Part shown: in pieces, positions 2,109-16,047 of the stretch
Position numbering within the stretch: position 1 is the stretch's first letter
Layout of the letters: each line of letters begins with the position of its first letter
Source: Tsukamurella paurometabola
GTDB taxonomy: Bacteria; Actinomycetota; Actinomycetes; Mycobacteriales; Mycobacteriaceae
DNA: 64,000 nt
Direction of reading: 5' to 3'
NCBI RefSeq assembly: GCF_900631615.1
Contig: NZ_LR131273.1
Location: 620,001-684,000 of the forward strand
The notes under the pieces: model-generated
Database searches by the model: none
What the model saw: the letters and a program-made list of their open reading frames with translations, nothing else
What the model was told of the DNA's origin: nothing
Made by a program: the position numbers and the translations under genes

Positions 2109-3734
2109 TCACCCTTCCAGACCGAGCAGCGTCACGGACTCTTCTCGCATCTGCACCTTGCGGATCTTTCCCGATACCGTCATAGGGAAGGCCGATACCA
2201 CGTGCACGTACCGCGGGATCTTGTGTCGCGCGATCTTCCCCTCCGCGAACGCCTTCAGGTCGTCCACGGTGAAGGACTCCACCCCCTCGCGGAGCTGGAT
2301 CCAGGCCATCAGTTCCTCGCCGTACTTCTCGTCGGGCACGCCGATCACCTGTGCGTCCAGGATGTCCGGGTGGGTGTAGAGGAACTCCTCGATCTCGCGC
2401 GGGTAGATGTTCTCGCCGCCGCGGATCACCATGTCCTTGATGCGGCCCGTGATGCGCACGTAGCCGTTCTCGTCCATGGTCGCGAGGTCACCGGTGTGCA
2501 TCCAGCCGTCCGCGTCGATGGCCTCGGCGGTCTTCTCCTCGTTGTTCCAGTAGCCCTTCATCACGGAGTAACCACGGGTGCAGAGCTCCCCGACCTCGCC
2601 GCGGGGCATCACGGTGCCGTCGATCGGGTCGATCACCTGGATCTCCAGGTGCGGTCCCACCCGGCCGACGGTGCCGACGCGCAGCTCCAGGGCGTCGTCG
2701 ACGCGGGTCTGCGTGGACACGGGCGAGGTCTCCGTCATGCCGTAGCAGATGGAGACCTCGCTCATACCCATCCGGTCGACCACCTTGCGCATGACCTCCT
2801 CCGGGCACGGTGAGCCGGCCATGATGCCGGTGCGCAGGCTGGAGAGGTCGTAGGAGTCGAAATCCGCGAGGGCGAGCTCGGCGATGAACATCGTGGGCAC
2901 GCCGTAGAGGCTGGTGCACTTCTCGGCGGCGACGGCGGCCAGCGCGTCCGCGGGCAGGAACGCCGGGCCGGGGATCACCATGGCGGCGCCGTGGGTGATG
3001 GCGGCGAGGTTGCCCATCACCATGCCGAAGCAGTGGTAGAAGGGCACCGGGATGCAGATCGAGTCCTGCTCGGTGTAGTTCAGCAGCTCGCCCACGAGGA
3101 AGCCGTTGTTGAGGATGTTGCCGTGGGTCAGCGTGGCGCCCTTGGGGAATCCCGTGGTGCCCGAGGTGTACTGGATGTTGATCGGGTCGTCGGCGCGCAG
3201 CTCGTCACCGAGGTCCGCGAGGGCGTCGAGCTCGTTGTCCGACGGTGCCGCCAGGTACGCCTCCCAGGCGGGCGAGCCGAAGGTGACCACGTCACGCAGC
3301 GCGGGCGCCTCGGGCCGGGCGGCCTCCAGCATCGCCGCGTACTCGGAGGTCTTGAAGCTGGTCATCGAGTACACGGCCACGATGCCCGATTGGTTCAGGG
3401 CGTACTCCAGCTCGCGCTGCCGGTACGCGGGATTGAGGTTGACCAGGATGACGCCGGCCAGCGCCGTGCCGAACTGCACGATGACCCACTCCGGCGTGTT
3501 GGGCGCCCACACGCCCACGCGATCGCCGCGCCGGATTCCGTTGCGCAGCAGCCCGGCCGCGAAAGCGCGGGAGTCCGCGAGCAGCTCGTCGTAGGTCCAG
3601 CGCCGGCCCGACGGCACGTCGACGAGCGCGGTGCGCTCGCCGAACCGATCGGCCGTCATCTCGAGCTGGGCGCCGATCGTGGCGGTGAGCAGCGCGGGCT
3701 CGGCCTCGCCGCGGTCGTAGGACGGGGTGGTCAT
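2109..3734 (-). CDS. fadD35: Fatty-acyl-CoA synthetase, FadD35-like AMP-binding ligase
   Basis: A 541-residue acyl-CoA ligase with the AMP-binding motif [16 protein letters not shown], the YGMTETSP motif, the GWMHTGDLA motif and the C-terminal catalytic lysine region ([15 protein letters not shown]). Family members activate medium- or long-chain or branched fatty acids to their CoA esters. The gene lies between the acetoacetyl-CoA synthetase gene and the CitE-like lyase gene on the same strand. This is the place of fadD35 (Rv2505c-type) in the mycobacterial leucine/isovalerate cluster. The substrate is not readable from sequence; a short branched-chain acid is inferred from context. Confidence 0.85.
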
Positions 3735-3756
3735 CTCTTCACTCCTACTGATCTCT

Positions 3757-4599
3757 TCAGTCGGCCCGGGCGACGATCGCGCGGGCCTGGGCGAGCAGCG
3801 GCGCGTCGATCATCTGACCCCGCACCTGGTAGACGCCGTTGTTGCCGGCCTCCGCCTCGAGCACCTCGCGGGCCCAGGCGATCTCGTCGTCCGTGGGCCG
3901 ATAGGCGGCACGGATCACCGCCGCCTGCGAGGGATGGATGCAGACGGTGGCGGCGAAGCCGAGCGCCACGGCGTCCTCCGCCTCGGCGGCGAGCCCCTCG
4001 GTGTCGGCGATGTCGATGTGCACCGCGTCGAGCGCGAACCTGCCGTGCGCGGCCGCCGCGAGCCGGGTCGCCGAGCGGACGTACCGGGGGACGTCGCGGT
4101 ACGTCTGATCCGCGAAGCGGCTGGACCGCCCGCCCATCGCGGCCACCAGGTCCTCCGCGCCCCACATGAGGCCGATGCACCGCGGGTGGGCGGCGATCTC
4201 GTTCACGTTCACGGCGCCCAGGGGCGTCTCGATGAGCGCGATCACCTGCAACCCGTCGACCTGCGCCAGCCGGTCCAGCTGGTGCGCCGACTCGGTCTTG
4301 GCGAGCATGACCACACGATAGGCCGTGCGGCGCAGCGCCTCGATGTCTTCGGCGAAGTCGTAGGTGCCGAAGGCGTTCACCCGCACGATCGTCGTCGCCG
4401 GGTCGAGGTCGTTGTCGATCAGGGCCTCACGCGCCGCGGGCCGCGCGTCGGCGGTCACCGCGTCTTCGAGGTCGAGGATCACCGCGTCGGCGCGCTCGGC
4501 CGCCTTGGCGTACCGCTCGGGCCGATCCGCCGGGCAGAACAGGATCGCGGGGCCGGGTGGCCGCCACGCGGGAGCGCTCAGGTCGTCGTGGTGGAACAT
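3757..4599 (-). CDS. citE: CitE-like beta-hydroxyacyl-CoA lyase (HpcH/HpaI family)
   Basis: A 280-residue TIM-barrel lyase of the CitE/malyl-CoA lyase group. It shows the substrate and metal-binding pattern of the family: [11 protein letters not shown] near residues 39-49, the acidic metal ligand in [10 protein letters not shown] and the aspartate in MWGAEDLV. The M. tuberculosis homologue in the same position (Rv2498c) is known as a beta-hydroxyacyl-CoA lyase that cleaves (R)-HMG-CoA to acetyl-CoA and acetoacetate and also acts on citramalyl-CoA. There are no citrate lyase alpha or gamma genes nearby, so citrate fermentation is unlikely. The gene ends 22 bp before the ligase gene and abuts the MaoC gene. 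Confidence 0.88.
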
Positions 4600-5112
4600 C
4601 TACGCGCCCTCCCCCGCCGAATCCGCCGGAGCCTTCCGCACCAGCGTCGACCGCTCGGCCACGGCGACCACGGCGCCGTCCTGGTTCCGCGCGACGTGCC
4701 GCAGGTTGACGATGCCCTCGCCGGGCCGCGACTTCGACTCCCGCTTGCCCGTGCACAACGTCTCCGCGTACAGGGTGTCGCCGGCGAAGACCGGCGCGGG
4801 GAAGGCGATCTCGGAGAAGCCCAGGTTCGCGACCAGGGTCCCCTGGGTGAGCTGCGCGACGGACAGGCCCACCAGCGTGGAGAGCGTGTACATCGAGTTC
4901 ACCAGCCGCTGGCCGCCGAAGCCCGGCTGCTGCGCGGACCAGTGAGCGTCGAGGTGCAGTGCCTGGGTGTTCATGGTCAGCTTGGTGAACAGCATGTTGT
5001 CCGCCTCGGTGACGGTGACGCCGGGCCGGTGCTCGTACAGCACGCCGTCCTCGAACTCGTCGAACCACAGGCCGCGCTGAGTGACCCGCCGCACGGGCTC
5101 CTGCTCGCTCAT
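4600..5112 (-). CDS. MaoC-like (R)-specific acyl-CoA hydratase/dehydratase
   Basis: A 170-residue hot-dog-fold protein, the normal size for a single MaoC domain. It contains the region TEADNMLFTKLTMNTQALHLDAHW, the place of the catalytic Asp/His dyad of (R)-hydratases, and a typical FAGDTLYAET strand. It is Rv2499c-like by position. In the leucine pathway it would hydrate methylglutaconyl-CoA to (R)-HMG-CoA for the CitE-like lyase encoded next; this assignment is inferred from the pairing. Its ATG overlaps the stop of the acyl-CoA dehydrogenase gene by 4 bp (ATGA), which suggests translational coupling. Confidence 0.85.
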   Translation of the reverse strand: MSEQEPVRRVTQRGLWFDEFEDGVLYEHRPGVTVTEADNMLFTKLTMNTQALHLDAHWSAQQPGFGGQRLVNSMYTLSTLVGLSVAQLTQGTLVANLGFSEIAFPAPVFAGDTLYAETLCTGKRESKSRPGEGIVNLRHVARNQDGAVVAVAERSTLVRKAPADSAGEGA

Positions 5113-6257
5113 GCCTGCAGCCCCAGCGAGCGCGCGATCAGCATGAGCTGGACCTCGGTGGTGCCCTCGCCGATCTCGAGGATCTTCGAATCGCGGTAGT
5201 GCCGCGCGACGGGGTACTCGTTCATGAAGCCGTAGCCGCCGTGGATCTGGGTGGCCATGCGCGCGTTGTCCATCGCCGCCTCGGAGGAGATCATCTTGGC
5301 GATGGCGGCCTCCTTCTTGAAGGGCTTCCCGGCGAGCATCAGCCGGGCCGCCTCGTAGTAGGCGACGCGCGAGGTGTGCGCCCGCGCCTCCATCCGGGCG
5401 ATGGCGAAGGCGATCGACTGGAACTCGCCGATCGGCTTGCCGAAGGCGTTGCGCTCCTTGGCGTACTTCACCGACTCGTCGACGCAGCCCTGCGCGGCGC
5501 CGGTCGCGACGGCGGCGATGGCGATGCGGCCCTCATCGAGGATGGAGAGGAAGTTGGCGTAGCCGCGGCCCTCCTCGCCGAGGAGGTTCTCCTTCGGGAC
5601 GCGCACGTCGGAGAAGCTCAGCGGGTGCGTATCGGAGGCGTTCCAGCCGACCTTGTTGTACGCGGGCTCCACGGTGAACCCGGGCGTGCCGCTGGGCACG
5701 ATGATGGTCGAGATCTGCTTGCGGCCGTCGGGCTTGGTGCCGGTCACCGCGGTCACGGTCACCAGGCTGGTGATGTCGGTGCCCGAGTTGGTGATGAACT
5801 GCTTGGAGCCGTTGATGACCCACTCGTCGCCGTCGAGCTTGGCGGTGGTCTGGGTGCCGGAGGCGTCCGAGCCGCAGCCCGGCTCGGTGAGGCCGAAGCC
5901 GGCCAGGTTCTCGCCCGCGGCGAGCGACGGCAGGTACTTCTGCTTCTGCTCCTCGGTGCCGAACTTGTAGATCGGCATGGCGCCGAGGCCGACGCCGGCC
6001 TCCACCGTCATCGCGACCGACTGGTCGACGCGGCCGAGCTCCTCCAGTGCGAGGGCGAGGGCGAAGTAGTCGCCGCCCATGCCGCCGTACTCCTCGGGGA
6101 AGGGCAGGCCGAACAGGCCCATCTGCCCCATCTGCTTCACGACCTCGTACGGGAAGGAGTGCTCCTCGTCGTGCTTGGCCGAGACGGGCGCGACCACCTG
6201 GTTGGCGAAGTCGCGCACCGTGTCCCGCAGGTCGGCGTAGTCCTGGGTCAGTTCCAT
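5109..6257 (-). CDS. fadE19: Acyl-CoA dehydrogenase, FadE19/isovaleryl-CoA dehydrogenase type
   Basis: A 382-residue FAD flavoprotein with the whole acyl-CoA dehydrogenase fold: an N-terminal helical domain, the GFGLTEPGCGSD signature around residue 122, and the C-terminal QIHGGYGFMNEYPVARHYRD signature. It ends in IGEGTTEVQ, where the catalytic glutamate of short/medium-chain enzymes sits. It is equivalent by position to fadE19 (Rv2500c). The likely substrate is isovaleryl-CoA or another short branched acyl-CoA, inferred from the carboxylase genes upstream. It starts 1 bp after the stop of the biotin carboxylase gene. Confidence 0.9.
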   Translation of the reverse strand: MELTQDYADLRDTVRDFANQVVAPVSAKHDEEHSFPYEVVKQMGQMGLFGLPFPEEYGGMGGDYFALALALEELGRVDQSVAMTVEAGVGLGAMPIYKFGTEEQKQKYLPSLAAGENLAGFGLTEPGCGSDASGTQTTAKLDGDEWVINGSKQFITNSGTDITSLVTVTAVTGTKPDGRKQISTIIVPSGTPGFTVEPAYNKVGWNASDTHPLSFSDVRVPKENLLGEEGRGYANFLSILDEGRIAIAAVATGAAQGCVDESVKYAKERNAFGKPIGEFQSIAFAIARMEARAHTSRVAYYEAARLMLAGKPFKKEAAIAKMISSEAAMDNARMATQIHGGYGFMNEYPVARHYRDSKILEIGEGTTEVQLMLIARSLGLQA

Positions 6258-6258
6258 G

Positions 6259-8226
6259 TCAGTTCTCTTCCGTTTCGGTAGCCGTGACGGTCGCGAGCAC
6301 CTGGGCCGCGGTCACCTTGTCTCCTGCGCGCACCGCGATCGACACCACACCGTCGTGCGGCGCCGTCAGCGGCTGCTCCATCTTCATCGCCTCGATGATC
6401 ACCAGGGTCTCGCCCTTGGTCACCGCCTGGCCGTCCTCGACCGGCACCGCGACCACGGCGCCCGGCATGGGGCTCACGACCTCGCCGCCGTGGGCGCCGT
6501 CGCGGTCCTTCGACGTGGACCTCGCCAGCGGCAGCTCGTACGTGCCGTCCTCCCCACTGACCCAGTAGGTTCCGCGATCGAGTGCGACGGTGACGGGCGT
6601 GGAGAAGCCGTCCACCACCAGGCGCTCGCCGACGATCCGGGCCGTTCCCGACCAGTCCAGGCGGGGCTCGTCGCCGGTGCTGCGCACCGTCACCGCGTCG
6701 CCCAGGACGGACGCGTCGACACCGTCGAAGCGCACGACGGTGGGCTGCGCGCCCCCGATGCGCCACCCGGTCTCGGTGCCCCAGGCCCCCTCGCCACGGG
6801 CCGCGGCGACCGCGGTGACCGCGGCGGCGGCGTACGCGCGGACCGTCGGCTCGGGGCGGGTGTAGGTGGGCGCCAGGCGATCCAGCAGCTCGGTGTCGAG
6901 CGTGCCGGAGACGACGCCGGCGTCCGCGAGGACGAACCGGCAGAAGTCGACGTTGGTGCGCAGGCCGGTGAGCTGGGTGCCGGCGAGGGCCTCGTCGAGG
7001 CGCCGCAGGGCCTGCTCGCGGTCGTCGGCGTGCACGATCACCTTGGCGAGCATCGGGTCGTAATCGCTACCGACCACGCTGCCCGCCTCGATGCCGGTGT
7101 CGACGCGGACGGGGCCGCGGCGATCGCTGCGGGGGTACCGCAGGGCCGTGACGGTGCCACCGGTGGGCAGGAAGCCGGCCGCCGGGTCCTCCGCGTAGAC
7201 GCGGGCTTCGACGGCGTGACCGGTGAGCACGATGTCGTCCTGGGTCAGCGCCAGCTTCTCGCCGTTGGCGACGCGGATCTGCTGCTCCACCAGGTCGACG
7301 CCGGTCACCAGCTCGGTAACCGGGTGCTCGACCTGCAGGCGGGTGTTCATCTCCATGAAGAAGAACTGATCGGGGCGGCGGGCCGAGACGATGAACTCGA
7401 CGGTGCCGACGCCGGTGTACCCGACGGAGCGCGCGGCGTCGCAGGCGGCGCGGCCGATCTCGGCGCGGGTGGCCTCGTCGAGCAGCGCCGACGGCGCCTC
7501 CTCGATCACCTTCTGGTGGCGGCGCTGCAGCGAGCACTCGCGCTCCCCGAGGTGGATCACGTTGCCGTGCTTGTCGGCGAGCACCTGCACCTCGATGTGG
7601 CGCGGGGTGTCCACGAAGTGCTCCATGAACAGCGTGTCGTCGCCGAACGCGGCGGCGGCCTCCCGGCGCGCGGCCGCGACCGCGGCGGGCAGGTCCGCCG
7701 GGTTCTCCACCCGGTGCATGCCCTTGCCGCCGCCGCCCGCGCTGGGCTTGATGAGCACGGGGAAACCGATGCCCTCGGCCGCGTCGATGAGGTCGGCGTC
7801 CGTGAGGCCCGGGCGGCTGATGCCGGGGACCACGGGCACGTCGCGCTCGACGACCGCGGCACGCGCCGTGATCTTGTCGCCCATCGTCTCGATGGATTCG
7901 ACGGGCGGGCCGAGGAATTCGATCCCCGCCTCCGAGAGTGCCCGGGCGAACGCCGCGTTCTCGGAGAGGAAGCCGTAGCCGGGGTGCACCGCGTCGGCGC
8001 CGGTGGCGCGGGCCGCCTCGACGACCTTGTCGATGCGCAGGTAGCTCTCGGTCGCGGCCGCCGGGCCGAGGCGCACGGCCTCATCGGCGAGCTTCACGTG
8101 CCGGGCGTCCGCGTCCGCATCGGAGTACACCGCGACGCTGGCGATGCCCAGGGTGCGCAGGGTATCGATGACGCGGCAGGCGATCTCGCCGCGGTTCGCG
8201 ATCAGGACCTTCTCGATCTTGCTCAT
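6259..8226 (-). CDS. accA1: Acyl-CoA carboxylase alpha subunit (biotin carboxylase plus BCCP)
   Basis: A 655-residue alpha subunit. It has an N-terminal biotin carboxylase domain ([15 protein letters not shown]), the ATP-grasp glycine-rich loop ([11 protein letters not shown]), the [16 protein letters not shown] signature and a C-terminal biotinyl domain with the biotinylation site EAMKMEQ about 40 residues from the end. Together with the AccD1-like subunit it should carboxylate methylcrotonyl-CoA or a related acyl-CoA in leucine breakdown. Two starts are possible: ATG at 8226 (chosen, MSKIEKV, with a GAGAG upstream) or ATG at 8235, which overlaps the accD stop as TGATG. The open frame continues much further upstream, but that part is a shadow of accD. 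Confidence 0.93.
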
Positions 8227-8234
8227 ATCTCTCA

Positions 8235-9767
8235 TCACATCCGGAAGACGCCGTAGGAGACCTCGGGCAGCGGCGTACGGGACGCCGCGTCCAGCGCGAG
8301 GCCGAGGACGGTGCGGGTGTCGGCGGGATCGATCACGCCGTCGTCCCACAGCCGGGCCGTGGAGTAGTACGCCTGCGACTGCCGCTCGAACTGGTCGCGC
8401 ACGCCCTGCTTGAACTCCTCCACGCCCTCCTGATCGCGGCGGACGGAGGCGAGGGTGTCGGCCGCCTGCGGGCCGCCCATCACCGAGATCCGCGCGTTGG
8501 GCCACATCCACAGGAACCGCGGCGAGTAGGCGCGGCCGCACATGGAGTAGTTGCCGGCGCCGAAGGAGCCGCCCACGATCACGGTGAACTTCGGGACGCG
8601 GGCGCACGCCACGGCGGTCACCATCTTGGCGCCGTGCTTGGCGATGCCGCCCTCCTCGTACTGGCGGCCCACCATGAACCCGGTGATGTTCTGCAGGAAC
8701 AACAGCGGGATGCGGCGCTTGTCGCACAGCTCGATGAAGTGGGCGCCCTTCTGCGCGGCCTCGGCGAACAGCACGCCGTTGTTGCCGATGATGCCCACCG
8801 GATGGCCGTGGATCCGCGCGAACGCGGTGACCAGCGTGGTGCCGAAGAGCTCCTTGAACTCGTCGAACTCGCCGCCGTCGGCGATGATCTCGATGACCTT
8901 GCGCACGTCGTAGCCGATCTTCGGATCGGTCGGCACCACGTCGTACAGATCCGTCTGCGGGCGCGCCGGGGGCAGCGCCGGACGCACGTCCCACTGCACC
9001 TCGCCGACCGGGCCGAGGCGGCCGATGATCTGCCGGACCTTCTCCAGCGCCTCGTCGTCGGAGTCGACGAGGTGGTCGGTGACGCCGGACTTGGTGGAGT
9101 GCATGAGGCCGCCGCCGAGGTCCTCGGCCGTGACGTCCTCGCCCGTCGCGGCCTTCACCAGCGGCGGGCCGGCGAGGAAGATGGTGCCCTGGTCCCGGAC
9201 GATGACCGTCTCGTCGCTCATGGCGGGCACGTAGGCACCGCCGGCGGTGGAGCTGCCGAGCACCGCCGCGATCTGCGGGATGCCGGCGGCACTCATGTTC
9301 GCCTGGTTGTAGAAGATGCGGCCGAAGTGCTCCCGGTCGGGGAAGACCTCGTCCTGATTGAGCAGCATGGCGCCGCCCGAGTCCACGAGGTAGACGCAGG
9401 GCAGCCGGTTCTGCATCGCGATCTCCTGCGCGCGCAGGTGCTTCTTGACGGTGATCGGGTAGTACGTGCCGCCCGAGACGGTCGCGTCGTTGGCGACGAT
9501 CATCACCTGGCGGCCGGACACCGTGCCGATGCCGGCGACGGCACCCGCGGCGGGGGCCTTGCCGTCGTACATGTCCTCGGCGGCGAGCGGCGCCACCTCG
9601 AGGAACGGGCTGCCGGTGTCCAGCAGCCTGCGGATCCGCTCGCGGACCAGCAGCTTTCCGCGGCCCTCGTGGCGGGCGCGTGCGCGCTCACCGCCGCCCT
9701 GCGCCACCCTGTCGAGCCGCTCCCGCAGCTCGGCGACGTTCGCCTCGTGTTCCTCGCGGAATGTCAC
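8235..9767 (-). CDS. accD1: Acyl-CoA carboxylase beta subunit (carboxyltransferase)
   Basis: A 510-residue carboxyltransferase of the AccD1/MCC-beta type. It shows both crotonase-like halves, with [10 protein letters not shown] and [11 protein letters not shown] in the first and the glycine-rich [20 protein letters not shown] in the second. It is the partner of the biotin carboxylase encoded just downstream. The start is GTG at 9767, chosen because AAAGGAGC lies 5 bp upstream, a near-ideal ribosome binding site. It is the first gene of the catabolic operon. The 162-bp gap upstream contains a dispersed dyad repeat and probably the operon promoter. Confidence 0.93.
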
Positions 9768-9843
9768 GCCCGCTCCTTTGGGTTATTCACCATTAACTGA
9801 ATCCCAGAGTAGCTGTGACGCGCGCCACCTGTCTACCCCACGT

Positions 9844-9906
9844 CGATTGAACACCGTTACGGACAGGAAAACCGCAGGTCGGAAAATCCGAAACGGTGTT
9901 CAATCG
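9844..9906. repeat. Dispersed dyad repeat, family A, copy 1
   Basis: A perfect 15-bp inverted repeat (CGATTGAACACCGTT at 9844-9858 and its complement at 9892-9906) surrounds a 33-bp core containing AAACCGCAGGTCG. A second copy with the same core in the same orientation lies at 33710-33773. The element begins 24 bp past the TetR stop on the minus strand and ends 77 bp before the accD start, so it may also act as a transcript-end hairpin. Confidence 0.8.
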
Positions 9907-9929
9907 GGTGGGGCCGGTGGGGCGGAAAG

Positions 9930-10544
9930 TCAGACGCCGAGGGCCGCGAGGGCCTTGTCGCGCAGCAGTGCGCGGAGCCGCGGCTGCGGCAGCGCCGGCA
10001 GGCTCGGAGCGGCGTTGATCAGGCCGAAGACGGCGTGCACCACGGCGCGGTTGTCCACCGGATCGCCGCCGAGCGCGGTGAGCGCATCGGTCCAGATCTC
10101 CACGTACTGCCGCTGCAGGCGCCGTACGCGGCGCGCCGATTCCGGCGCGAGCGACCACATGTCGCGGTACTGCACGCGGATCAGGTCCGGCTCCGACGCG
10201 GCGAAGTCCACGTGGAAGTCGACGAGATCGCGCAGCGCCTGCCGCGGGTCGCCGGCGCGCTCCTCCGCGACCCGGCGGCCACCGTCGTACAGGTACTCGG
10301 AGATCTCCACCAGGAGCGCGGCGAGCACGTCCTGTTTACCCGCGAAGTGGCGGTACATGGCGGGACCGGAGACGCCCGCGGCCGCGCCGATGTCCTCGAG
10401 GCGCACGCCGGCGAAACCGCGCTCGGCCATCAGCGCCGCCGCGGCGGCGAGTAGTTCGCGGCGGCGGGCCGCCTTGGCGCGCTCGCGCGCCGTCCCCGCC
10501 TCGGCCCCTGCCGCGCCGCTCCGGCGGGTCGTCGGTACCTCCAT
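9930..10544 (-). CDS. TetR-family transcriptional regulator
   Basis: A 204-residue regulator from the ATG at 10544; a GTG at 10577 would add 11 residues of unlikely composition. The N-terminal helix-turn-helix is clear (RRRELLAAAAALMAERGFAGVRLEDIGAAAGVSGPAMYRHFAGK). The ligand-binding C-terminal half is typical in length. By position it matches the TetR gene (Rv2506-type) beside the mycobacterial leucine cluster, so it probably controls that operon in response to an acyl-CoA; the ligand is inferred. It is on the same strand as the operon and divergent from the M-box unit. Confidence 0.85.
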   Translation of the reverse strand: MEVPTTRRSGAAGAEAGTARERAKAARRRELLAAAAALMAERGFAGVRLEDIGAAAGVSGPAMYRHFAGKQDVLAALLVEISEYLYDGGRRVAEERAGDPRQALRDLVDFHVDFAASEPDLIRVQYRDMWSLAPESARRVRRLQRQYVEIWTDALTALGGDPVDNRAVVHAVFGLINAAPSLPALPQPRLRALLRDKALAALGV

Positions 10545-10612
10545 GGCGGGCCACACTACTCGGCTTGCCCCGCTCACGACCCCGTGTCATGCTTGTTGCG
10601 CAAGGCGCCAAT

Positions 10613-10760
10613 CGTTCGCTGAGGCTCCTTCGCGGAAACAGGCCAGCGACCCCGAACGTCGAGAGACGCCCCGGGTCAGGACAGGCGCATCCGGCTTAAG
10701 GGTGCTCCCCGATTGGCTCCCGTTCACGGGTTCACGCCGCGAAGTGCTGAAGGTCTGACG
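10613..10760 (+). promoter_or_regulatory. M-box (ykoK leader) Mg2+ riboswitch
   Basis: The leader matches the M-box consensus segment by segment. GCTGAGGCTCC is at 10618-10628, GAACGTCGAGAGACGCC at 10653-10669, GGGTCAGGACAGG at 10673-10685, CCGGCTTAAGG at 10691-10701 and AGTGCTGAAGGTCTGACG at 10743-10760. The ends can pair weakly as P1 (CGTT near 10613 with GACG near 10757). M-boxes sense Mg2+ and repress downstream magnesium-uptake genes when Mg2+ is plentiful. The next genes are a leader ORF, an MgtC-family gene and an ABC transporter, which fits. GGAGGG (10762-10767) can pair with CCCTCC (10781-10786) just after the aptamer as a possible expression-platform stem. Confidence 0.93.
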
Positions 10761-10825
10761 TGGAGGGGCGCGCTTCGTCACCCTCCCTCCGGCGCGCGGA
10801 ACCGTCGACCCGTGGAGGTGATGCA

Positions 10826-10888
10826 ATGCCCGACGACAGTCGTAGTCGATCGCTCGGCGCTTCCCGCATCACCGTGGGAAGCCGCTGA
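10826..10888 (+). CDS. Short leader ORF between M-box and mgtC (20 codons)
   Basis: An ATG at 10826 sits 7 bp after GGAGG (10813-10817), a textbook ribosome binding site. It opens 20 sense codons, MPDDSRSRSLG followed by ASRITVGSR, ending in TGA at 10886-10888. It lies in the long (about 280 bp) leader between the riboswitch and mgtC. Two hairpins start 13 bp after its stop. A regulatory upstream ORF is inferred from the layout. A competing frame from the ATG at 10821 has only a 3-bp RBS spacing, so I rank it lower. Confidence 0.5.
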   Translation: MPDDSRSRSLGASRITVGSR

Positions 10889-10901
10889 GCGCACCATGAT
10901 C

Positions 10902-10940
10902 CGGGCCGGAGGCCCGCCCCGCCGACGGTGCGCCGTCGGC
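10902..10940 (+). promoter_or_regulatory. Tandem hairpins after the leader ORF, possible attenuator
   Basis: Two adjacent stems are visible: CGGGCC/GGCCCG with a 3-nt loop (10902-10916) and GCCGACGG/CCGTCGGC with a 4-nt loop (10921-10940). There is no T-tract, so intrinsic termination would be of the U-less actinobacterial kind, or these could be Rho or ribosome-pausing structures. They stand between the leader ORF and mgtC. Function is inferred from position. Confidence 0.45.
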
Positions 10941-11042
10941 CGCGCCGCGCTGCCTCCGTTCCACTGACACCTGCCACACCCTGCTCCGCCGCGCCCCTCG
11001 GGCAGCGGCGCGGTAGCGCGTGCCCGGACGAGGGGAATCACC

Positions 11043-11762
11043 ATGCACGCCACGAACATCGACCTGCTCGACATCCTGCTGCGCATCGCGGCCGGTGTCG
11101 GCTTCGGCACCCTGATCGGACTCGAGCGCCAGTACCGCGCCCGCATGGCCGGCCTGCGCACCAACGCACTGGTCTCGGTGGGCTCCGCGCTCTTCGTCGT
11201 CCTGTCCGCCTACGGTTTCGCCGGCGGCGATCCCACTCGCGTCGCGGCGCAGATCGTCTCCGGGATCGGCTTCCTCGGCGGCGGCGTGATCCTGCGCGAC
11301 GGCCTCACCGTCCGCGGCCTGAACACCGCCGCCACTCTGTGGTGCTCCGCCGCGGTCGGCGCCCTGTCCGGCTCGGGGATGTACGTCCCCGCCGCGATCG
11401 GCACCGCCGTGGTGATCGGGGTCAACACGGCACTGCGCTCGGTCGGGCACGCCGTCGACCGCGCACCCGACACCGGCAAGGAGGCGCCGAGCCGCTACGA
11501 GTTCGTCGCCGTGACGCGCGACGAGAACGAGGCGCACGTGCGGGTGATGCTCGTGCAGGCCCTGAGCCGCACCGTCTTCCACCTGCAGTCCATCAGCAGC
11601 GTGGACACCGAGGACGGCCGCGTCGAGGTACGGGCCACGCTCGCCGCCGACGGTCGCGACGACCGCGCCCTCGAGACCGCGATCAGCCAGCTCAGCATGG
11701 AGCCATCGGTCACGGCGGTGCGCTGGGACGCGCTGCCCGAGCGTGAGGAGGCGGACCTGTGA
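11043..11762 (+). CDS. mgtC: MgtC/SapB-family membrane protein
   Basis: A 239-residue inner-membrane protein with about five hydrophobic segments in the first 140 residues and a cytoplasmic ACT-like C-terminal domain. It carries the family hallmarks GFGTLIGLERQ, the LRTNALVSVGSALF segment, and IVSGIGFLGGGVILRDG with GLNTAATLWC. MgtC proteins promote growth at low Mg2+ and during infection by modulating ATP synthase or membrane potential rather than by transporting Mg2+. The ATG follows GAGGGG by 7 bp. It is the first full gene behind the M-box, and its stop overlaps the permease start (GTGA). Confidence 0.9.
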   Translation: MHATNIDLLDILLRIAAGVGFGTLIGLERQYRARMAGLRTNALVSVGSALFVVLSAYGFAGGDPTRVAAQIVSGIGFLGGGVILRDGLTVRGLNTAATLWCSAAVGALSGSGMYVPAAIGTAVVIGVNTALRSVGHAVDRAPDTGKEAPSRYEFVAVTRDENEAHVRVMLVQALSRTVFHLQSISSVDTEDGRVEVRATLAADGRDDRALETAISQLSMEPSVTAVRWDALPEREEADL

Positions 11763-13513
11763 GCTCCCTCTTCGCTCCCCTGCTCGGCCGCCGGCGGACC
11801 GAACGCGCAGGCCGCCGCTCGATCGCCGCCGACGTGCTGGTGCTCGCGGGCGCGGCTGCCCTGATCTGGCTGACGATCCGCGTGGGCCAGGGCATGGGCG
11901 CGCCGATCGACCTGGCGCACAGCAGCACCCGCGTCGACACCGACCCGTCGAACCTGCCCTACTACGCGCTGCGCTCCCTACTGCGCATGTTCCTCGCGCT
12001 CGCCGCGTCGATCGTCTTCACCTTCGGCTACGCGCTGCTCGCGGCGCGGTCGCGGCGGGCGCGCGCGGTGCTGCTACCACTGCTCGACGTGCTGCAGTCC
12101 GTGCCGATCCTCGGGTTCCTGTCGGTGACGGTGACCGTCTTCCTCGCGCTGTTCCCGGGGTCCGCACTGGGCCTCGAGTGCGCGGCCGTGTTCGCCATCT
12201 TCACCTCGCAGGCGTGGAACATGACCTTCGCCTTCTACCAGAGCCTCATCAGCCAGCCGCGCGAACTCGGCGAGGCCGCCCGCGACCTGGGACTCTCACG
12301 GTGGCAGCGGTTCTGGCGGCTCGACGTGCCCAGCGGCATGATCCCGCTGGTCTGGAACGCGATGATGAGCTTCGGCGGCGGTTGGTTCTTCCTCACCGCG
12401 TCGGAGGCCGTCTCGGTGGCGGGCGACGAGTACGCCCTACCCGGCATCGGCGCCTACGTCGCCACCGCCTCGGCCGACGGTGACCTCGCCCGCGTCGGGT
12501 GGGCGATCGCGGCGATGATCGTGGTCATCGTCGGGGTGAACCTCCTGTTCTGGAGCCCACTGACCGCCTGGGCCGAGCGGTTCCGGCTCGAGGACTCCGC
12601 GACCGGCCGCATCCCGCGCTCGGCCGTGCTGACGCTCCTGCGCCGCTCGCACGTCGCCGACGGGGTGCGCCGCGCCGCCGCGCCGGTGGTGACGCGACTG
12701 GACCGGGTCTTCGGCGCGCTCGGCCGCACCGGGCACGCCGCGCCGGCCGACCCGCGCCGCGCCCGCCTCGGCGACATCGCGTTCGGCACCGTCGTGCTGG
12801 CCGTCCTGGCGTACGGGCTGTGGCGGGCGCTGGAGGTGATCCTGCGCGACGCCGGCCCCGCCGAGGTCGGGCACGTGCTCCTGCTGGGCCTCGCCACGAT
12901 GGCGCGGGTCGCGGTGGTGATGGTGTTCGCCACCGTCGTGTGGGTGCCGATCGGCGTGATCGTCGGCCGCAGCCCGCGCCTGACCCGGGCCCTGCAGCCC
13001 GTCGTGCAGGTGTGCGCGAGCTTCCCCGCCAACTTCCTGTTCCCGCTGGTCACCGCGGTCCTCGTGGCGTGGAACATCCCGCTCGACCTGGGCGGCGTCG
13101 TCCTCATGGCGCTCGGCACGCAGTGGTACATCCTGTTCAACGTGATCGCCGCGGCCAGCGCCATCCCCGGCGACCTGCTGGAGGCGGCCGACGACATGCG
13201 GCTGCCCCGGCTGCTGAAATGGCGCTACGTCCTCCTGCCCGGCGTCTTCGCCGGGTACGTGACCGGCGGGATCACCGCCGCCGGCGGTGCCTGGAACGCG
13301 TCGATCGTCGCGGAGGTCGTCTCGTACGACGGGACGACGCACCACGCGTACGGGCTCGGCGACTACATCGCACAGGCCACAGCCGCCACCGGGCCCGAGC
13401 ACGGCCCGCACCTCCTCCTCGGGATCGTCGTGATGTGCCTGTTCGTCGTGGGCACCAACGCCGCCCTGTGGCGCCGCCTCTACCGCACGGCCGAACGCCG
13501 CTACTCGCTCTAG
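11759..13513 (+). CDS. ABC transporter permease with two fused BPD-type domains
   Basis: A 584-residue polytopic protein made of two binding-protein-dependent permease domains. Each half carries an EAA-like loop: the ELGEAARDLGLSRWQRFWRLDVPSGMIPL region near residues 165-200, and the DLLEAADDMRLPRLLKWRYVLLPGVF region near 475-505. It resembles the duplicated permease of nitrate/sulfonate-like systems. Translation starts at GTG 11759, overlapping the mgtC stop by 4 bp. No substrate-binding protein gene is present in the operon. Control by an M-box suggests a role in Mg2+ homeostasis, which is an inference. Confidence 0.85.
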   Translation: MSSLFAPLLGRRRTERAGRRSIAADVLVLAGAAALIWLTIRVGQGMGAPIDLAHSSTRVDTDPSNLPYYALRSLLRMFLALAASIVFTFGYALLAARSRRARAVLLPLLDVLQSVPILGFLSVTVTVFLALFPGSALGLECAAVFAIFTSQAWNMTFAFYQSLISQPRELGEAARDLGLSRWQRFWRLDVPSGMIPLVWNAMMSFGGGWFFLTASEAVSVAGDEYALPGIGAYVATASADGDLARVGWAIAAMIVVIVGVNLLFWSPLTAWAERFRLEDSATGRIPRSAVLTLLRRSHVADGVRRAAAPVVTRLDRVFGALGRTGHAAPADPRRARLGDIAFGTVVLAVLAYGLWRALEVILRDAGPAEVGHVLLLGLATMARVAVVMVFATVVWVPIGVIVGRSPRLTRALQPVVQVCASFPANFLFPLVTAVLVAWNIPLDLGGVVLMALGTQWYILFNVIAAASAIPGDLLEAADDMRLPRLLKWRYVLLPGVFAGYVTGGITAAGGAWNASIVAEVVSYDGTTHHAYGLGDYIAQATAATGPEHGPHLLLGIVVMCLFVVGTNAALWRRLYRTAERRYSL

Positions 13514-13545
13514 CCGGCCGACCCCTTATTACTAGGAGCAGTTCC

Positions 13546-14844
13546 ATGACCACCACGCTCGCCACCCCGCTGATCCGGCTGCAGGGGCTCACCAAGAGCT
13601 TCGAGGGCGCCCACGGCGATACCCTCACCGTGCTCGACGGCATCGACCTCACCGTCGAGCCGGGCGAGATCGTCGCCCTGCTCGGCCGCTCCGGATCGGG
13701 CAAGTCCACCCTGCTGCGCATCATGGCCGGCCTGATCCCCGCGACGTCCGGCACCGTCGAATCCGACGGTGCGCCGCTGTCCGGGCCCAACCCCGCCGCC
13801 GCGATGGTCTTCCAGTCCTTCGCCCTCATGCCCTGGCTGACCGTTCAGGACAACGTCGAGCTGGGCCTGACCGCCCGCGGCGTGCCGCGCGCCGAGCGCC
13901 GGACCCGCGCCCTCGAGGCGATCGACACCATCGGCCTCGACGGCTTCGAGTCGGCGTATCCGCGCGAGCTGTCGGGCGGTATGCGGCAACGGGTCGGCTT
14001 CGCCCGCGCGCTCGTGCTCGAACCCGACCTCCTGCTCATGGACGAGCCGTTCTCCGCCCTGGACGTGCTCACCGCCGAGAACCTGCGCGGCGAGCTGGTG
14101 GAGCTGTGGGGCCGCGAGGGCTTCCCGACCCGCAGCGTCTGCATCGTCACCCACAACATCGAGGAGGCGGTACTACTCGCCGACCGGGTCGTGGTGCTCG
14201 GCTCCAAGCCCGGCCGCGTCGTCCACGAGACCCGGATCGACCTGCCGCGCCCGCGCACGCGCACCGCGCCGGAGTTCGAGGCCATCGTCGACGAGCTGTA
14301 CGGCGCACTGACCGGCCGCGCGGCCGAGATCGAGCACGAGCCGGACCCCGTCGAGGCGACGCCCGTGAGCCGCCCGCTGCCGGACGCGACCGTGGACGGC
14401 ATCGCCGGCCTCCTGGAGCTGGTCGCGGCGCACGGCGAGCAGGCGGACCTGCCCGACCTCGCGGCGGACCTGAACTTCGAGCTCGACGACATCATGCCGC
14501 TCGTCGACGCGGCAGCGATGCTCGACTTCGTGGAGGTGGCCGGCAACGACATCGTCCTCACCGAGCGCGGCGCCACCTTCGTCGGCGTCCCGCTCACCGA
14601 GGCGAAAGAGGTGTTCGCCCGGCAGGCGGCCGCGCGTGCCCCACTGGTGCGGACCGTCCTCCGGGCCCTGCGCACGGCACCCGACGGTGCGCTGCGCAGC
14701 GGCTTCTTCCTGGATCTGCTGCGTCGCGGGTTCGGTCCCGACGATGCGGCGCGCCAGTTGCGGCTGGCCGTCGACTGGGGGCGGTACGGCGAGCTCTACG
14801 ACTACGACGCCGACGGTGGCCGGATCCGCCTGGACCAGCGATGA
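13546..14844 (+). CDS. ABC transporter ATPase with C-terminal AAA-associated domain
   Basis: A 432-residue protein. Residues 1-250 form a standard ABC ATPase with Walker A GRSGSGKST, Q-loop VFQSFALMPWL, signature ELSGGMRQRVGFARAL, Walker B DLLLMDEPFSALD and the H-loop VTHNIEEA. Residues 290-432 form an extra domain of the kind annotated as AAA-associated, which accompanies duplicated NitT/TauT-type permeases; winged-helix-like repeats are plausible. The ATG has GGAG 9 bp upstream and lies 32 bp after the permease gene. It completes a binding-protein-less transporter. The ligand is unknown; magnesium or a related metal is inferred only from the riboswitch. Confidence 0.87.
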   Translation: MTTTLATPLIRLQGLTKSFEGAHGDTLTVLDGIDLTVEPGEIVALLGRSGSGKSTLLRIMAGLIPATSGTVESDGAPLSGPNPAAAMVFQSFALMPWLTVQDNVELGLTARGVPRAERRTRALEAIDTIGLDGFESAYPRELSGGMRQRVGFARALVLEPDLLLMDEPFSALDVLTAENLRGELVELWGREGFPTRSVCIVTHNIEEAVLLADRVVVLGSKPGRVVHETRIDLPRPRTRTAPEFEAIVDELYGALTGRAAEIEHEPDPVEATPVSRPLPDATVDGIAGLLELVAAHGEQADLPDLAADLNFELDDIMPLVDAAAMLDFVEVAGNDIVLTERGATFVGVPLTEAKEVFARQAAARAPLVRTVLRALRTAPDGALRSGFFLDLLRRGFGPDDAARQLRLAVDWGRYGELYDYDADGGRIRLDQR

Positions 14845-15039
14845 TGCATCGTCATCTGAGAGTTTGTGATCTCATTGTGACCAATCGCACATTCCCCCGA
14901 ACCGCTCCCCTAGAGGTTGTCTCGTCGCAATCATTTCGTTATCGTCGGCGGGACGCGGATCACGAAGCGGTCACGATGAGGACATCGTCGGATCACCACG
15001 TGGTCCGAAGTGCGGTTTTACGGTTGGAGTAGGCGAGAT

Positions 15040-16047
15040 ATGACACGGAGTCGCGAGAGCCACGTGCGCTGGCAAGGCGGCACGCAGGTCCTCGATGATG
15101 AGTCGATCACCGCGATCATCCCCCTGGATGAGCTCGAGACCCGCCTCGAAGAGGCCTATTCCGAGAACTGGTCCGACACGCCGGACGACACCGCGCTGGT
15201 CTACCGCCCCTCCAGCTCCGAGGTCACGCAGGACCTCATGATCCCCGAGGTGCTGTTCACCGGGGACACGGAGCTGGACGCGCCCGAGCTCGACGAGCTC
15301 GAGGACACCGCGCTCCTCGGCGCGCCGGAGGCGGCCCCCGAACTCATCCCGACGCCCGTCCGCAAGGGCGGCAAGCACCGCGTCCCCACCGCGCCGCACG
15401 CCCTCAAGGGCCGCGCCGCGCTGCTCGCCCTCGCCGCGGGCGCCAGCGTCGCCGGTGCCGCCGTGGTCAACGCCACGGGCAGCGACACCCCGTCGACCTC
15501 GCAGCAGCCGATCACCCCGCCCGCGGGCCCCGAGGCGAACGCCGGCCGCCAGGCGCCCCTGCCCGCCGCGCAGGACTCCGAGCAGTTCGCCGCCGGTCTC
15601 GCCGGTGGCAAGGCCCGCAAGGACGCCGACGACAAGCGCATCATCGACTCGATGCGCCCGAAGGTGACCGCCCCCGTGAACGGCGCCACCCTCACCTCGA
15701 ACTTCGGCACCCGCTGGGGCGCCATGCACGGCGGCCTCGACCTGGCCGCCCCGCTCGGCACCCCGCTGTTCGCGGCCGCCGACGGCGTGGTCACCGACGC
15801 CGGCCCCGCCTCGGGCTTCGGCATCTGGATCAAGATCCGCCTCTCCGACGGCACCGTGCTGGTCTACGGCCACATGTACAACGTCAACGTCCGGGCCGGC
15901 CAGACCGTGAAGGCCGGTGACCTCATCAGCTGGGTCGGCAACAACGGCTACTCCACCGGCCCGCACCTGCACTTCGAGGTGCACAGCCCCGGCGGCGCCA
16001 AGATGGACCCGCAGGCCTGGCTCGCCGAGCGCGGCATCCGCGTCTAG
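15040..16047 (+). CDS. M23-family peptidoglycan peptidase, membrane-anchored
   Basis: A 335-residue protein with an acidic cytoplasmic N-terminus (1-105), one transmembrane segment (about 123-145), a linker, and a C-terminal LytM/M23 domain. The zinc site is intact: His230 in MHGGLDLAAP plus the HLHFEV motif (His309, His311). It should cut peptide bridges in the cell wall outside the membrane. The ATG at 15040 is chosen over an upstream GTG at 15010 because GGAGTAGGCGAG lies just before it. It converges with the helicase gene as Rv0950c does with uvrD1 in M. tuberculosis. The 195 bp upstream shows no riboswitch I can recognise. Confidence 0.88.
   Translation: MTRSRESHVRWQGGTQVLDDESITAIIPLDELETRLEEAYSENWSDTPDDTALVYRPSSSEVTQDLMIPEVLFTGDTELDAPELDELEDTALLGAPEAAPELIPTPVRKGGKHRVPTAPHALKGRAALLALAAGASVAGAAVVNATGSDTPSTSQQPITPPAGPEANAGRQAPLPAAQDSEQFAAGLAGGKARKDADDKRIIDSMRPKVTAPVNGATLTSNFGTRWGAMHGGLDLAAPLGTPLFAAADGVVTDAGPASGFGIWIKIRLSDGTVLVYGHMYNVNVRAGQTVKAGDLISWVGNNGYSTGPHLHFEVHSPGGAKMDPQAWLAERGIRV

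Follow-up and report, generated by a model that had tools for sequence, protein, structure and literature searches.

What does an ATP-binding cassette (ABC) transporter with nitrate- or taurine-type kin do when its genes lie behind a Mg2+-sensing riboswitch? The question is raised by positions 10604-14844 of a stretch of Tsukamurella paurometabola DNA (64,000 nucleotides of contig NZ_LR131273.1, positions 620,001 to 684,000; the whole stretch is called the window), where an M-box precedes mgtC and genes for a permease and an ATPase:

10604..10772, plus strand: M-box (RF00380), the Mg2+-sensing aptamer; all 169 model positions matched, 108 bits against a gathering score of 44, E 4e-23
11043..11762, plus strand: mgtC (MgtC/SapB family; PF02308, PF21770)
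11759..13513, plus strand: duplicated BPD_transp_1 permease, 584 amino acids (PF00528, two stretches)
13546..14844, plus strand: ABC ATPase, 432 amino acids, with a C-terminal AAA_assoc_C domain (PF00005, PF09821)

That this operon is real and linked to Mg2+ can be held with high confidence. It probably serves in Mg2+ starvation, its ABC transporter most likely being an importer of Mg2+, with cargo and direction judged from genomic context.

The layout bears out a preliminary description of this DNA, which had read an M-box leader, mgtC, a duplicated permease and an ATPase with an AAA-associated C-terminal domain as one tightly spaced unit. The RF00380 model matches at full length, the Pfam matches agree with the gene order, and the spacing can be read directly: the mgtC and permease genes overlap in GTGA, and 32 bp separate the permease gene from that of the ATPase. 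A separate promoter between mgtC and the permease, the prospect of which had been raised, did not appear, since no σ70-like promoter was found in 10300-15100 by a scan limited to that type, which actinobacterial promoters can escape. The same interval contains a single terminator-like site, within the ATPase gene (0.9 expected in shuffled sequence). The M-box, which was aligned with 22 other M-boxes, is the only copy found by a whole-genome scan of the 4.70 Mb single-contig Tsukamurella genome. MgtC scores above the cut-off for PF02308 (126.9 bits) and PF21770 (93.6 bits), and reaches 191.5 of the 255 set for the NCBIfam MgtC equivalog; the C-terminal domain of the ATPase scores 121 bits with PF09821. 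Over cut-off the permease matches PF00528 only and the ATPase PF00005 and PF09821 only. Thus a BPD_transp_1 permease and an ABC ATPase are present, as in NitT/TauT-type ABC importers, and neither protein has a Pfam match to the known Mg2+ transporter families (CorA, MgtE, MgtA/B, CNNM, NRAMP).

The pairing of M-box and ABC transporter is no accident. Among 249 genomes sampled from the order, the permease occurs in 8 and an M-box in 22; five of the eight permeases lie just behind an M-box, with mgtC in between in the window, G191, G238 and G214, and directly, without mgtC, in G074. By a rough estimate, 0.0014 cases of an M-box just ahead of the permease (1500 bp upstream, same strand) would be expected by chance. 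In the order sample, M-box, mgtC and permease recur in the same succession in G191, G238 and G214. A second sample, searched for M-boxes with strict filters, consists of 151 genomes of the Gardnerella/Bifidobacterium family around the Gardnerella genome G295. Here the permease is present in 48 of the 151 genomes and an M-box in 31; all 31 M-boxes are on the strand of the permease gene, 127-643 bp ahead of it, and with these filters the 103 permease-less genomes gave none. The Fisher p value for this co-occurrence is 2.7e-20, merely a guide because the genomes are related and hence not independent. The transporter is the sole M-box target found in this family sample, and mgtC was not found in the nine family loci examined among the 86 described below, four of which carry an M-box.

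The wider neighbourhood of the permease was surveyed in 86 distinct loci with flanks of about 6 kb: those retrieved by a scan of genome contigs from 84,980 species, the window, and five further order-sample loci. Since the best 80 of 561 confirmed relatives were used, counts over these loci lean to close relatives; L039 and L042, whose contigs equal those of L054 and L057 in length, are left out. Neighbour genes were chosen by codon-position G+C, since antisense open reading frames (ORFs) swamped plain ORF clusters, and were counted by tblastn, excluding matches below 200 (MgtA), 45 (ArsR) or 60 (MgtC) bits. Of the genomes from which the 80 loci come, 78 were searched in full for M-boxes, strict filters being applied to the larger set; for L071 the locus was scanned and gave no M-box. 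The permease family is found in Actinomycetota, Cyanobacteriota, Pseudomonadota, Acidobacteriota and Chloroflexota, and its association with M-boxes and Mg2+ transport genes crosses phyla. In 19 of the 86 loci an M-box immediately precedes the permease or its mgtC; these loci belong to Tsukamurella, Nocardia, G074, G214, Bifidobacterium, Gardnerella and an uncultured member of the Anaerolineae (Chloroflexota; L129). The gene mgtC is present in 23 loci, mostly just upstream (downstream in two from Streptomyces and one from Crossiella), and mgtA in nine, all nine MgtA proteins scoring above the curated Mg2+-ATPase cut-off. In L126 the cyanobacterial P-type ATPase encoded close to the permease clustered with MgtA, but it fails the Mg2+ model (363 against 611) and is not counted. 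Genes for ArsR/SmtB-type regulators occur in 17 loci by tblastn, six of them confirmed by hidden Markov model (HMM); an HMM-confirmed ArsR gene in L076 is outside the 17 because of the bit threshold.

Genes of two further Mg2+ transporter families recur beside the permease. Residue positions in Nramp proteins were mapped with motifs that we take to be those of the NRAMP family. An Nramp gene of the NRMT type (NRAMP-family Mg2+ transporters) is near the permease in 5/86 loci. The five proteins have most of the NRMT residues given in the available part of PMC8806188: in transmembrane segment (TM) 6 the Thr, Ala and Trp are present (GTTVAPW), and at the Asn position of TM1 the L076 protein has Gly and the other four have Ala; the second His is Gln, not Asn. 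In L076, from the Acidimicrobiia, an ArsR-type gene, the NRMT gene, the permease and the ATPase form a row on a single strand (3260-8973). A corA gene is nearby in three loci (L085, L087 and L093); a corA-like fragment in L078, weak at 55 bits, is excluded. In locus L093, from Leucobacter, positions 9153-12909 hold a minus-strand M-box (12744-12909) before three corA-type genes that are convergent with the ABC genes; lying downstream on the other strand, this M-box is not among the 19. For MgtE near the permease no match was obtained with a query of just two pieces of 122-123 residues. In all, at least one of M-box, mgtC, mgtA, NRMT and corA is present in 39 of the 86 loci (37 counted without corA, with L087 and L093 added by hand), or 43 when ArsR is included. 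On a FastTree tree of the loci, the labels change at least 8 (M-box), 10 (mgtC) and 4 (mgtA) times.

M-boxes usually guard Mg2+ uptake genes, and three unrelated families of Mg2+ transporter are represented among the other neighbours; it is from these two points that we infer import of Mg2+. The preliminary description had suggested that this transporter class may move Mg2+ or a linked solute. Its tie to Mg2+ homeostasis is strongly supported, by the M-box directly before permease and ATPase where no mgtC is close by and by mgtC, mgtA, Mg2+-type NRAMP and corA genes nearby; that the ABC transporter itself carries Mg2+ is a reading from context and somewhat the better bet.

The mechanism proposed for the Tsukamurella operon begins in the leader, where the following additional features are present:

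10762-10768, plus strand: GGAGGGG, resembling a first Shine-Dalgarno sequence (SD1), near the 3' end of the M-box
10776..10790, plus strand: pyrimidine-rich stretch, a putative anti-Shine-Dalgarno that could pair with SD2 or, as read by eye, with SD1
10814-10821, plus strand: SD2, a strong Shine-Dalgarno sequence, GGAGGTGA, ahead of the small upstream ORF
10826..10888, plus strand: small upstream ORF of 20 codons, MPDDSRSRSLGASRITVGSR, missed in the preliminary description

When cytosolic Mg2+ is high, the M-box would fold and SD2, ahead of the small upstream ORF, would be masked; transcription would then most likely be cut short by Rho, the mode of action reported for the pe20 M-box of M. tuberculosis. 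At low Mg2+ the leader would open, and mgtC, the permease and the ATPase would be co-expressed. The duplicated permease and the ATPase would form an ABC transporter with no neighbouring binding-protein gene, most likely importing Mg2+, or a hydrated or complexed form of it, at the expense of ATP; the AAA_assoc_C domain may gate this transporter, and MgtC would adjust cell physiology in parallel. An alternative assignment of AAA_assoc_C, as an ArsR-like winged helix, was dropped after profile comparison put its probability at 0.1 percent and a PDB search yielded one insignificant match (E 0.15). The Tsukamurella genome already contains matches to three CorA, one MgtE and five CNNM proteins (with no MgtA over cut-off), which would make the ABC transporter an inducible addition.

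The predicted switch is modelled on the pe20 leader, for which PMC12810186, in the portion of its text available, reports a translational switch plus Rho. In the minimum-free-energy fold of an 88-nt piece of the Tsukamurella leader the pyrimidine stretch is paired with SD2, yet the fold is no better than those of shuffled sequences (z -0.16), and the switch therefore rests on analogy with pe20. Of 19 leaders examined, 17 have a strong Shine-Dalgarno sequence and a small ORF (11-51 codons by scan) behind the M-box (the window, L040, L041, L043, L054-L056, L065-L067, L072, L073, L083, L084, L096, L110 and L124); the ORF is lacking in L081 and unconvincing in L129. Most of 23 further M-box leaders likewise have a small ORF with a strong Shine-Dalgarno. 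The starts MPDDS, MPDGS and MPGGNS of these small ORFs are similar in appearance to the MSSSDSP type found in Mycobacterium-like loci (genus g2); the small peptide of the pe20 leader is termed mycobacteria-specific in PMC12810186, as far as the available text goes. In L129 a 12-pair terminator-like hairpin (5860-5887) lies between the M-box (5619-5811) and the permease; the 5' arm of this hairpin, read by eye, could pair with GAGGGGC at the aptamer end, and this leader could thus have the layout of a transcriptional off-switch.

Several results weigh against Mg2+ as the cargo, or against the M-box link as a general property of the family. None of the five Mg2+ markers is present in 47 of the 86 loci, and 43 of these also lack ArsR; the latter take in all 16 cyanobacterial and 7 proteobacterial loci. 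(Flanks are shortened in 12 of the 86 loci, 11 of them marker-less.) No M-box was found, even by lenient scanning, in five mgtA-linked loci, in the other three permease loci of the order sample (G102, G128 and G203) or in five M-box-less loci of the Gardnerella/Bifidobacterium family, where 17 of the 48 permease-bearing genomes have no M-box by strict filters. The several CorA, MgtE and CNNM matches of the Tsukamurella genome belong here as well. Importers of this ABC fold normally need a binding protein, and none was found among nine Pfam-tested ORFs around the operon, although one might be encoded elsewhere, or among the annotated recurrent neighbour families of the related loci. The nearest solved relatives of the permease, CmpB (E 4.5e-14) and a nitrate permease (2e-11), are anion carriers by name. 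Finally, no CorA was found in eight permease-bearing Gardnerella-like genomes, and no MgtE or over-cut-off MgtA in the four tested, but a CNNM protein is kept in all eight; the idea that the ABC transporter is their only Mg2+ route was dropped for this reason, and, NRAMP not having been searched there, it is not the sole candidate. Two further searches touch the marker-less loci. A scan of 10 cyanobacterial, acidobacterial and Caballeronia loci for any other telling riboswitch (Rfam, gathering score) found none, only the added Chloroflexota locus giving an M-box; a divergent M-box first assigned to L109 (Eremiobacterota) was dropped, since it is absent from that locus and lies elsewhere in the genome.

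If Mg2+ is not the cargo, the transporter may still belong to a Mg2+-starvation response and carry something other than Mg2+ alone: an anion or organic acid with which Mg2+ enters in complexed form; phosphate or bicarbonate that rebalances the cell; or K+ or a polyamine that replaces Mg2+. This is an unlikely but serious alternative. By sequence the closest kin of the transporter are of the nitrate/bicarbonate type, and MgtC, encoded in the same operon, is not known to carry Mg2+ itself. The M-box operon of M. tuberculosis has PE/PPE genes beside mgtC (PMC12810186, in part), so that M-box targets are not all classical Mg2+ transporters. Against another solute stand the family sample, in which the transporter is the only M-box target found (31/31), and the company that it keeps elsewhere, namely dedicated Mg2+ transporters of the MgtA, NRMT and CorA families. 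The same article states, in its available text, that M-boxes usually guard Mg2+ uptake genes.

The preliminary description had also allowed that the ABC proteins serve MgtC, as an accessory complex that depends on MgtC or regulates it. In many actinobacterial loci mgtC is indeed the immediate neighbour, upstream or downstream, and it is found in 23 of the 86 loci; this idea nevertheless fits badly and is very improbable, because M-box and transporter occur together with no close mgtC in Bifidobacterium, Gardnerella, Chloroflexota and G074 (the search for mgtC covered the surroundings of the transporter). Least credible is that the M-box controls mgtC only and the ABC genes are unrelated neighbours with a nitrate/sulfonate-like function, for although the best curated matches are of that class and the transporter is present in many genomes with neither M-box nor mgtC, this is countered by the GTGA overlap and 32 bp spacing, by conservation of the arrangement in the genus, by the M-box linkage in other lineages with no nearby mgtC, and by the NCBIfam nitrate, taurine and sulfonate scores, all far under cut-off.

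Import of Mg2+ would set this transporter apart from its named kin and from known Mg2+ systems alike. The label of nitrate/sulfonate-like is borne out as kinship, since the best curated NCBIfam matches, albeit sub-cut-off, are of the nitrate or taurine type; as a function it fails every curated cut-off (permease score/cut-off: ntrB 62.4/209, TauC 38/342, SsuC 23.9/347). CmpBCD and NrtBCD, of cyanobacterial type (9u9z, 8w9m), include the closest solved permease and are among the closest solved ATPase sequences. Their permease chains have 279-280 residues, in contrast to the single duplicated chain of 584 in the window, and their ATPase matches span the ATPase domain only; the AAA_assoc_C profile has no significant solved relative. 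A scan of viral contigs with the permease gave 7 pattern matches and no relative. Across 34 permeases compared, five acidic residues (D110, E140, E172, E216 and E519) do not vary.

Among regulated systems, the M. tuberculosis pe20 operon shares with Tsukamurella the M-box, SD1, anti-Shine-Dalgarno, SD2, small upstream ORF and an operon that reaches mgtC, but has PE/PPE genes in place of the ABC transporter; the term "abc" is absent from the main text of PMC12810186. The Salmonella mgtCB operon likewise joins mgtC to a primary active transporter and is induced there by low Mg2+, whereas MgtB is a P-type ATPase under PhoPQ (PMC9276622, in part), not an ABC transporter under an M-box. NRMTs, M-box-linked in several actinobacteria here as are the ABC genes, differ in being an unrelated protein family that is not ATP-driven (PMC8806188, in part). 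The nearest precedent is in Bifidobacterium breve UCC2003, for which PMC5746004 describes, in the part available, a single case of an M-box in an expressed 5' leader, that of Bbr_0406-07, whose product is an ABC transporter with its permease in COG4986. It resembles Tsukamurella in having an M-box before an ABC transporter, its membership of the same family being presumed from Bifidobacterium relatives; it differs in that this part of the report names no mgtC and no functional test. In the open-licence literature, to which the search was confined, nothing was found that tests what Bbr_0406-07 does or connects the M-box and mgtC with this transporter; there may be more in subscription journals. 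The novelty claimed in the preliminary description must be qualified, an M-box before such a transporter having been reported in B. breve in 2017. The available text of PMC12810186 lists four types of prokaryotic Mg2+ channel or transporter (CorA, CorB/C, MgtA/B and MgtE), and that of PMC8806188 adds the NRMTs; neither of these portions includes an ABC transporter. Where "magnesium ABC transporter" or "Mg2+ ABC transporter" is printed, in the portions available of four papers, three mean genes named mgtA or mgtB, and in the fourth the phrase is an entry in a metabolic-model list.

The evidence leans, with a little less assurance than for Mg2+ import by the Tsukamurella transporter, toward a widespread and unrecognised class of ATP-driven Mg2+ importers with no binding protein, a duplicated permease and a regulatory domain fused to the ATPase, which is under M-box control in at least two phyla and is a leading candidate for regulated Mg2+ uptake in CorA-less Gardnerella-like genomes. 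If so, known parts would here make up a new class of Mg2+ transporter, and a family whose best curated matches are of the nitrate or taurine type may be misnamed. MgtC, whose role is termed elusive in the available part of PMC12810186, would gain a conserved transporter partner, and the CorA-less Gardnerella-like genomes a candidate route of regulated Mg2+ uptake.

Around the operon, the nine ORFs compared with Pfam between 6.3 and 20.6 kb are accC, accD, tetR, mgtC, the permease, the ATPase, an M23 peptidase, a UvrD-type helicase and one with no match. Four named Tsukamurella loci have the same flanks (accD and tetR upstream, the M23 peptidase downstream); among the best 80 of 561 loci the nearest named relative is Tsukamurella sp. 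M9C, with a permease 94% identical. The tetR-type regulator (9930-10577) is divergent from the operon and, if its longest ORF is correct, just 26 bp from the M-box start, which leaves scant space for an operon promoter unless it overlaps tetR.

Two observations concern M-boxes elsewhere. The NRMT signature GTTVAPW (GTTIAPW in L166), with DAGA or DAGG, is present in Nramp genes downstream of M-boxes in L018, L025, L030, L048, L050, L138, L140, L142, L143, L145-L147, L161-L163 and L166 (L048 and L050 are the same genes as L025 and L030). Because these M-box-linked Nramp genes have this signature, the "manganese-type" mycobacterial M-box class of PMC12810186, as described in its available text, may be a Mg2+ NRMT class, a suggestion resting on one Mycobacterium-like locus, L018. 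In Streptomyces orinoci (G265), eight M-boxes are present in one genome, on contigs C2, C9 and C25, with five of them on C2.

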